NCBI GenBank assembly: GCA_015231955.1
Contig: JADGAN010000002.1
Location: 124,001 to 188,000 of the forward strand
Reading direction: 5' to 3'
DNA: 64,000 nt
From: Oligoflexia bacterium
Lineage (GTDB): Bacteria > Bdellovibrionota > Bacteriovoracia > Bacteriovoracales > Bacteriovoracaceae
Below are positions 4,792 to 6,993 of the stretch, piece by piece (position 1 is the stretch's first letter; each line of letters begins with the position of its first letter). The notes beneath the pieces are model-generated. The model ran no database searches. It was not told where the DNA came from and saw only the letters and a program-made list of their open reading frames with translations. The position numbers were made by a program, and so were the translations under genes.

Positions 4792-4825
4792 TGAACATTG
4801 GAACATATGTCATATTCTTTTTTTC
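4781..4825 (+). repeat. direct repeat, left copy, flanking the ATPase island
   Basis: AAAACCTATA at 4781-4790 and TCATATTCTTTTTTTC at 4810-4825 recur in the same order and orientation at 6681-6690 and 6700-6715. The intervening 19 bases here are replaced by 9 there. The left block is the 3' end of the glycosyltransferase gene; the right block equals the 3' end of the small membrane protein gene read on the other strand. CATATTCTTTT also occurs a third time at 6550-6560. Confidence 0.6.
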
Positions 4826-4848
4826 AAAAAAAAGTGAAAAAAGAAAAA
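4818..4848. terminator. weak A/T hairpin after the glycosyltransferase
   Basis: TTCTTTTTTTCA and TGAAAAAAGAA form an almost perfect inverted repeat around a run of A, 27 bases after the glycosyltransferase stop. The stem is nearly all A-T pairs, so it would be unstable. It could act as a poor bidirectional terminator or be a by-product of the repeat that overlaps it. Confidence 0.25.
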
Positions 4849-4970: not shown

Positions 4971-5066
4971 TTTTGTGATAGACTGTACAAGTATTTGACC
5001 TATCACAAAACAGCATAAATATCTATTTTGTGATAGATAGAATAGGCAGATTACTTATCGCAAAAT
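4971..5066. repeat. tandem palindrome array upstream of the ATPase gene
   Basis: TTTTGTGATAG occurs at 4971-4981 and again at 5026-5036. Its inverse, CTATCACAAAA, lies at 5000-5010 and, with an A-to-G change and an altered outer base, at 5055-5065. Each inverted pair is separated by exactly 18 bases, and the second pair is the first shifted by exactly 55 bases. The array ends 11 bases before the GTG start preferred for the ATPase gene. This geometry suits an operator bound by a dimer or by two dimers, or the terminal recognition sequences of a mobile unit. No regulator gene is adjacent, so autoregulation by the ATPase is possible. Confidence 0.75.
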
Positions 5067-5076
5067 GGAGATTTGG

Positions 5077-6513
5077 GTGTTCGTTGGAAGAGAAGCTGAA
5101 TTGCAGTTATTAAATCAACTATGGGAACGATCAACGGCATCTTTGATCGTTTGCGTAGGTCGTAGAAGAATTGGAAAAAGTCGCTTAATTCAAGAGTGGG
5201 CAAAAGATAGTGCTAGTGTCTTTTTTGAATTTCAAGGGTTAGCACCTGATCCCAAGCTGTCTTCAGGAGCACAGCTCAGACATTTCATGGAGAAGTTGAG
5301 CTTACAAAGTAAAATTCCCAACGTCCCTGTTGATAATTGGAATCAGGCCTTTGCACTTCTTGATTTACAGATTTCGCGTAAAAAAACAGTCTTACTCCTT
5401 GATGAGATATCTTGGATGGGATCTGAAGACGGTGATTTTGTTGGAAAACTGAAAGTAGCATGGGATACTTTGTGGAAAAAACATCATAAGCTTAATGTTG
5501 TTTTATGTGGATCTGTCTCTTCATGGATTCAAACAAATTTATTGAATAAAACCGATTTTTATGGTCGCATCTCTCTTACCTTGCAATTAGAAGAGCTACC
5601 ATTGTCTGTGGCAAATAAATTTTGGGGCCATACCCATAGCAAACACATATCTAGCTATGAGAAGTTTAAAGTTTTGAATGTTATTGGGTGCATTCCTCGC
5701 TATCTTGAAGATATTAATCCCAAAGAGAGTGCAGAAAGTAATTTAGGACGAATGTGTGCTCACAGAAGTGGAATTTTGTTTGATGAGTTTGATAAAATAT
5801 TTAATGTAATTTTTAATCAGAGGTCTACTCTTTATAAACAAATCGTTAAAGAGTTGGTTTTAGGTTCTAAAAATCTTACTTCAATTTGTAATGGCATCTC
5901 GAGAGAAAAAAGTGGGATTATTAGCAACTATCTAAATGATATGGTACTTGCTGGATTTATTGCTAAAGAGTATGGGCATGACTTGCTAAATCCTAGTAAA
6001 GGAAACAAAAATCCTTTGTTTCGTTTAAAAGATAATTACCTACGCTTTTATTTAAAATTCTTACAGCACCAACGTCCTAAAATAGAAAAGGGACTGTTTA
6101 AGATTTCTACGCTGGAATTATCTAATCAATGGAATATTATAATGGGATTACAGTTTGAATCCCTTTTGCTTAACAACATCAAGGAAATCATTTCAAAACT
6201 TGGACTAGATTTAGAAATTATTGTTTCTGCTGGCCCTTATCGACAAAACAAAACTAGTAAGAACAAAGGTGGCTGTCAAATTGATCTCCTATTGCAAACT
6301 ACGTCTCAAGTGCTTTACCTGTGTGAGTTTAAGTTTAAAAAGAGTATTACAAGCGATGTTTGTAGTGAGATGGAACAAAAAATTGCAGTACTGCAACGAC
6401 CTCGTCGTTATTCTATTAGGACAGTGCTAATTTACGAAGGAGAGCTGACTGCCAGCAAAACGATAAGAAATTATTTTTATAAAGTTATGTCGGCAAGTGA
6501 GTTATTTTCTTAA
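5077..6513 (+). CDS. STAND-like ATPase (ATPase_2) with C-terminal DUF234/PD-(D/E)XK-like domain
   Basis: A 478-residue solitary ATPase. The N-terminus FVGREAELQLL is the classic opening of archaeal-type ATPase_2 proteins. Walker A, GRRRIGKS, lies at 28-35, Walker B, LLLDEI, at about 106-111, and a CGS sensor-like motif follows. Residues 250-300 look like a winged helix. The C-terminal part contains FESLL, then QIDLLL and CEFKFKK (D403, E417, K419), a PD-(D/E)XK nuclease-like pattern as found in DUF234. The GTG at 5077 is preferred because GGAG lies six bases upstream and the family normally begins MFVGRE; the ATG at 5065 lies inside the palindrome array and has no Shine-Dalgarno sequence. The gene looks more A+T-rich than its neighbours and is probably acquired. 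Its biological role is not known; defence, mobility or regulation are possible. Confidence 0.82.
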   Translation: MFVGREAELQLLNQLWERSTASLIVCVGRRRIGKSRLIQEWAKDSASVFFEFQGLAPDPKLSSGAQLRHFMEKLSLQSKIPNVPVDNWNQAFALLDLQISRKKTVLLLDEISWMGSEDGDFVGKLKVAWDTLWKKHHKLNVVLCGSVSSWIQTNLLNKTDFYGRISLTLQLEELPLSVANKFWGHTHSKHISSYEKFKVLNVIGCIPRYLEDINPKESAESNLGRMCAHRSGILFDEFDKIFNVIFNQRSTLYKQIVKELVLGSKNLTSICNGISREKSGIISNYLNDMVLAGFIAKEYGHDLLNPSKGNKNPLFRLKDNYLRFYLKFLQHQRPKIEKGLFKISTLELSNQWNIIMGLQFESLLLNNIKEIISKLGLDLEIIVSAGPYRQNKTSKNKGGCQIDLLLQTTSQVLYLCEFKFKKSITSDVCSEMEQKIAVLQRPRRYSIRTVLIYEGELTASKTIRNYFYKVMSASELFS

Positions 6514-6699: not shown

Positions 6700-6716
6700 T
6701 CATATTCTTTTTTTCC
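6681..6716 (+). repeat. direct repeat, right copy, flanking the ATPase island
   Basis: AAAACCTATA (6681-6690) and TCATATTCTTTTTTTC (6700-6715) repeat the blocks at 4781 and 4810 in the same order, about 1.9 kb apart. Read on the minus strand, the second block encodes the last residues (WKKRI and stop) of the small membrane protein. The arrangement suggests duplication of a junction by insertion or recombination. Confidence 0.6.
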
Positions 6717-6993
6717 AACAGAAATTGATGTTTGAAATAAAGAATAATAAGTAACTGTAAAAAAATACATCTAACAAAATATAAATTAGATTGAGTGGAA
6801 TTGGTGTCAAATGTCTTTCTTTGATGCAAAGATTGATGAATATTGGAAATGGGATGCCAAATCTCTCAATCTCGCAAATTTGAAATGTTGTATTTCTGAT
6901 TAATAAAGTAGCTAGGCCAATAACAATTCCAAGCACAAGATATGCGATAATAATTAGTATCTTTCTGGTTTGTTTTTTATGCAATTTTACCAT
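6700..6993 (-). CDS. small two-span membrane protein, unknown function
   Basis: A 97-residue protein beginning MVKLHKKQTRKIL, with a positively charged N-terminus, a first membrane span at about residues 13-32 (IIIAYLVLGIVIGL), a central loop containing FGIPFPIF and a second span at about 68-88 (LIYILLDVFFYSYLLFFI). It ends in a basic tail, KKRI. AGGA eight bases upstream of the ATG supports this start. A longer open frame extends upstream through the RluA gene end, but there is no reason to start there. I do not recognise the family. The gene's 3' end coincides with one block of the island's direct repeat. Confidence 0.5.
   Translation of the reverse strand: MVKLHKKQTRKILIIIAYLVLGIVIGLATLLIRNTTFQICEIERFGIPFPIFINLCIKERHLTPIPLNLIYILLDVFFYSYLLFFISNINFCWKKRI

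Follow-up and report, generated by a model that had tools for sequence, protein, structure and literature searches.

A four-site array directly ahead of a PDC-S27-family ATPase gene as the probable operator of its own product

The gene at 5077-6513 of the window (the whole 64,000-nucleotide stretch of DNA analysed here), which encodes a candidate anti-phage ATPase with a nuclease domain, is preceded by an array of four alternating half-sites. The ATPase encoded directly behind this array very probably has it as its cognate operator; the winged helix of the protein would bind its own control region and thereby autoregulate the gene. The features that carry this reading were computed, namely the array, its geometry, its conservation, the solitude of the gene, and covariation of half-site and protein sequence, in a comparison that covered about 200 relatives. 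In particular, the covariation of the half-site with the recognition helix strongly supports binding of the array by the ATPase, from which we infer autoregulation. The protein family is already known as a defence candidate, while the open-licence literature searched yielded no account of the array, of its fixed period, or of the correspondence between residues and bases.

Array of half-sites in the window

Four 11-base half-sites lie 5' of the gene, starting at 4971, 5000, 5026, and 5055, with alternating orientation and start-to-start distances of 29, 26, and 29 bases. Half-site A (TTTTGTGATAG, 4971-4981) carries the family word CTATCACAAAA on the minus strand, half-site B (CTATCACAAAA, 5000-5010) lies on the plus strand, half-site C (TTTTGTGATAG, 5026-5036) on the minus strand, and half-site D (TTATCGCAAAA, 5055-5065; two mismatches) on the plus strand. 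All four belong to the registered array. The first-pass annotation had described inverted-repeat pairs at 4971-4981/5000-5010 and 5026-5036/5055-5065, and every element was recovered in its place; the mismatches are, as had been said, confined to the last element (2 of 11 bases, fourth half-site only). Its exact 55-base offset was likewise reproduced, as a 41-base unit recurs at exactly 55 bases with 73% identity between the copies. The spacers, described as identical, agree in length (18 bases in both) but differ in sequence, and the equation of 55 bases with five helical turns was refined to about 5.2 turns. An alternative pairing, 5000-5010 with 5026-5036, is equally good, and the whole array is nearly symmetric about position 5018.

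The occurrence of one 11-mer in three exact copies within 66 bases is not due to chance; shuffles of the 64-kb window gave a mean of 2.4 matches with one mismatch allowed. The paired pattern is unique in the organism's own genome (5.6 Mb, 114 contigs searched), and allowing up to three mismatches yielded few other matches, near the level of a reversed control. The many unrelated genomic copies that had earlier been considered as an objection were not found in this genome.

The open reading frame extends from ATG 5065, a possible start that overlaps the last half-site. GTG 5077 (MFVGREAEL) is the likely start codon and is preferred because homologues align from MFxGR; a likely ribosome-binding site, GGAG, lies ahead of it at 5067-5070 on the plus strand, as judged from homologue starts. 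With the start at GTG 5077, the array ends before the gene.

The encoded ATPase

The gene lies on the plus strand and encodes a protein of 478 amino acids that combines an ATPase, a winged helix, and a PD-(D/E)XK domain. An AlphaFold2 model (pLDDT 93, pTM 0.90) comprises an ATPase domain, a lid, a winged helix, and a nuclease-like domain, the limits of which are our reading of its secondary structure. The P-loop ATPase domain spans residues 1-172 (5077-5592, plus strand; GRRRIGKS and LLLDEISWM), and the PD-(D/E)XK nuclease-like domain, assigned from alignment and model, spans residues 319-478 (6031-6510, plus strand; D403, E417, and K419). The winged helix suspected in the first-pass annotation is placed by the model at residues 233-318 (5773-6030, plus strand; pLDDT 93). 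Its third helix comprises residues 280-292 and falls within the recognition-helix segment of residues 278-292 (5908-5952, plus strand; K278, I281, and N284), which covaries with the half-site. Across 18 to 80 homologues, Walker A (GRRRIGKS), Walker B (DEISWM), D403, E417, and K419 show no or almost no variation.

The earlier assignment to ATPase_2/DUF234 stood in its first part, with ATPase_2 (PF01637) at 51.3 bits against a gathering cut-off of 33.2, whereas DUF234 (PF03008) remained below its cut-off in the window protein (19.1 against 22.5 bits) and reached E <= 0.01 in 8 of 18 close homologues. The PADLOC profile PDC-S27 matched the protein over its full length (E 1.8e-82, residues 2-477 of 478) and also matched all 43 aligned homologues. 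PDC-S27 is listed by PADLOC as a candidate single-gene defence system. It is described as an ATPase fused to PD-(D/E)XK and ranks among the commoner defence candidates of archaea (PMC12988326). The same fusion is present in the window protein, judging from its residues and the confident model. In Foldseek, the archaeal Walker ATPase 2qen was the best fold match; ORC/Cdc6 and NLR resistosomes came next, and the TM-scores were moderate (0.27-0.52 of the query). A single-sequence search of the PDB gave no match, while a profile search led to 2qen. The product is probably a STAND-like ATPase of a defence system, dose-dangerous and fitted with a nuclease domain.

No known defence gene was found among the immediate neighbours in the window, and no neighbouring gene recurs across about 90 homologue loci, the most frequent, a Fic-like protein named by eye, occurring in only 4. 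The earlier description of the gene as solitary is thus upheld. No regulator gene recurs beside the ATPase gene.

Geometry of the array across relatives

Single-sequence searches of genome and viral contig collections returned no relatives, whereas an alignment search found at least 506 from many phyla. The family has 16 matches in the organism's own genome, is missing from most related genomes, and is present in many copies in a few. For the close clade alone, 21, 14, and 12 copies were counted in genomes G126, G128, and G107, with half-sites mostly different per genome. Half-sites within one genome are near-identical in only 3 of 180 pairs; a search for repulsion between them revealed no clear difference from between-genome pairs at equal protein identity.

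Most homologues inspected upstream are preceded by inverted repeats of their own, with a geometry that is common to relatives from many phyla and a half-site sequence that differs. Among 125 regions upstream of homologues, direct repeats that match at 9 of 10 bases occurred at a lag of 54 in 41 regions and of 55 in 34; lags of 53, 56, and 108 (twice the period) were found in 7-8 regions each, and other lags in at most 4. In 259 upstream regions of neighbouring genes, the corresponding counts were 2 for lag 54 and 0 for lag 55. A four-site alternating model scored higher than all 252 shuffles in 66 of 126 homologue upstream regions and, in a second set of 91 further homologues, higher than all 91 shuffles in 62. 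As these shuffles are single-base, the neighbouring-gene regions form the stronger control, and only 1 of the 259 scored above 35. About a third of the homologue upstream regions have no array above the null. Comparable arrays, for which the first-pass annotation had proposed a search, are thus present before at least half of the homologues and not before control genes; as expected of an operator, the sites are kept in place before homologues and are absent before other genes.

Half-sites were registered by geometry plus a weak AAA preference, with allowed spacings of 23-26 (inward) and 28-32 (outward). In nearly all registered arrays, inward-facing sites are 24-25 bases apart and outward-facing sites about 30. 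Base 4 of the half-site is mostly C, bases 8-10 are AAA, and base 11 is mostly T, with bases 0-3 and 5-7 free. The family displays two array phases, and that of the window is also found in a Desulfosarcina plasmid homologue (49% identical) and others. In the commoner phase, a TATAAT-like hexamer directly 5' of the last forward site shows modest enrichment, with 8 cases in 80 arrays vs a mean of about 0.9 per position; at least some members of the family therefore have an array that extends across the promoter. The distance from array to start codon varies widely among homologues.

Covariation of half-site and recognition helix

In 57 close homologues, the pair with the highest mutual information was residue 281, the second in the recognition helix, and base 2 of the half-site. 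The correspondence is partly strict (D with C in 9 of 9, V with A in 6 of 6) and partly looser (S/T mostly with G, H mostly with G). Fixed in advance, this code was right in 21 of 37 cases of a second set (permutation p = 2e-4), including D with C in 4 of 4 and H with G in 7 of 7. A dereplicated set of 71 proteins below 60% identity was then used for all 469 x 12 residue/base pairs. Here, residue 278 and base 6 formed the top corrected pair, K/R going with C in 29 of 38 and Q with G in 5 of 7; residue 281 with base 2 showed D with C in 10 of 10. The top six corrected pairs include 284 x 1, 281 x 2, 281 x 1, and 287 x 1, and the 20 residues of segment 274-293 account for 5 of the top 20 pairs. 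Residues 278, 281, 284, and 287 are one helical turn apart, as expected for one face of a helix.

A leave-clade-out test was run on 55 phylogenetically independent sister pairs, with relatives above 60% identity excluded from training. Residue 281 with base 2 ranked first of 5,604 (28.6 vs a mean of 0 and sd of 3.5; 15 right, 3 wrong), and residue 278 with base 6 ranked 26th of 5,604; since some non-helix pairs also scored well, ranks below the first should not be over-read. A partial Mantel test gave p = 0.002 for the recognition helix, with the ATPase core correlating at least as well. In a change-versus-change test on sister pairs, the recognition helix did not stand out, since pairs that have diverged differ throughout. 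The window itself conforms to the covariation: K278 goes with C (base 6), N284 with T (base 1), and I281 with A (base 2). The suggestion that the ATPase itself may bind the array thus gained strong support, as the half-site covaries with the recognition helix of the adjacent protein; as it should for an operator, the sequence of the sites follows the residues with which the gene product would read DNA.

Proposed mechanism

In the proposed mechanism, the winged helix, with its recognition helix at about residues 278-292, would bind each 11-12-base half-site, the variable bases 0-7 providing specificity and the AAA(T) tail being common to the family. The array suggests four subunits or two dimers, which would occupy the four alternating sites at a period of 54-55 bases and be held in position by contacts between ATPase domains. 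Judging from sequence, it is very likely that the ATPase binds its own four-site array via the winged helix, and it probably controls its own expression in this way, most likely by repression. Occupied sites would repress the gene, a negative autoregulation that would end when the protein is titrated away or its nucleotide state changes. Repression is favoured by the position of the sites over the promoter and leader region, and over activation because no good sigma-70 consensus was found inside the window's array. Very probably, each gene copy would have a private address by which it controls itself. Such tight self-control, and a private sequence for each copy, would be explained if the STAND-like defence ATPase is dose-dangerous.

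A further role for the array, as a docking platform within a mobile one-gene unit, is doubtful. Inactive tetramers would be parked on it, and an infection that disturbs the array DNA or its transcription would release them to assemble into active nuclease.

Array plus ORF as a unit and alternative explanations

A recent same-genome duplicate (L026:1487-2997 vs L030/L051; 92-93% identity) comprises exactly the array and the ORF, with no flanks, and its homology sets in at the array, 79 bases 5' of the ATG, and stops about 8 bases past the stop codon. The second copy (L030/L051) appears to be split over two contig ends. Several cross-species pairs have similar homology limits, and the heritable unit is therefore array plus ORF. 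Such a unit may arise by transfer followed by selection or may be a one-gene mobile unit. In the latter case, the array could mainly be an end or target site for gene movement at which the nuclease acts. The bounds of recent duplicates, the presence of up to 21 copies per genome, and weak TnsC matches of the profile are all in keeping with such movement, which is nonetheless improbable as the main function of the array: the 3' end has no matching sites, no target duplication was seen, the promoter-proximal position of the array fits regulation, and transfer between differing flanks would leave the same limits if selection acted on nothing but ORF and operator. No end structure was found on the 3' side, and the only direct repeat that flanks the unit in the window is a weak match, TCATATTCTTTTTTTC, at 4810-4837 and 6700-6728. 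Operator and mobility roles do not exclude each other. In another locus, L049:600-1290 (on the same contig as L060; compared with L038), a remnant of the unit retains the array and the start but has lost most of the gene body; directly after it comes a second, complete array-plus-ATPase unit whose half-site is different.

Action at the RNA level, in which leader hairpins, possibly protein-bound, would hide the ribosome-binding site or cause attenuation, could account for the last pair, which surrounds or abuts the ribosome-binding site and start codon in many homologues. This explanation is very improbable, as half of the sites coincide with the putative -10 region or precede it, the distance to the start codon is highly variable, and the covariation of half-site bases is with a DNA-recognition helix; moreover, the outward-facing spacing (about 30) is as fixed as the inward-facing one, a constancy that hairpins do not need. 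Binding by a separate host transcription factor, to which inverted 11-mers across a promoter would be suited as a feature typical of classical operators, is hardly credible, given that no regulator gene recurs beside the ATPase gene, that the half-site covaries with the adjacent ATPase, and that the same geometry with different words in many phyla, and repeatedly within one genome, would require equally many matching regulators.

Relation to known systems

That a winged-helix protein can regulate its own gene by way of paired inverted repeats, as proposed here for the ATPase, is known in principle. For example, AbiEi, the winged-helix antitoxin of AbiE, binds two inverted repeats over its own promoter. 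Unlike AbiEi, which is encoded by a separate antitoxin gene, the window protein would unite sensor ATPase, DNA reader, and nuclease, and its array has four sites at a fixed period. In fold, the succession of a P-loop ATPase and a winged helix resembles STAND proteins (MalT, plant NLRs) and ORC/Cdc6; the window protein differs from STAND proteins in having a nuclease domain in place of sensor repeats and in reading, as proposed, its own operator.

The window protein is like PDC-S27 in both its full-length profile match and its domain make-up (PMC12988326), and the passages on that family in the literature found mention neither an operator array nor self-recognition. The fixed four-site geometry, the freely diversified words, and the partial residue-to-base code make the regulation and oligomeric state of PDC-S27 directly testable, and the family offers a natural collection of hundreds of different candidate protein-operator pairs.

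Genomic surroundings

In the window, the G+C content of the gene region is 33-38%, compared with about 40-49% in most of the surroundings. Three viral-collection contigs (L140, L142, and L143) carry close homologues with arrays, and the array-plus-ORF unit may therefore also ride on phages or prophages. Fic-like proteins, named by eye, are encoded near the ATPase in four loci of distant organisms (L014, L064, L072, and L107), and HipA-like proteins, also named by eye, in three. These neighbours may mark defence or toxin-antitoxin neighbourhoods.
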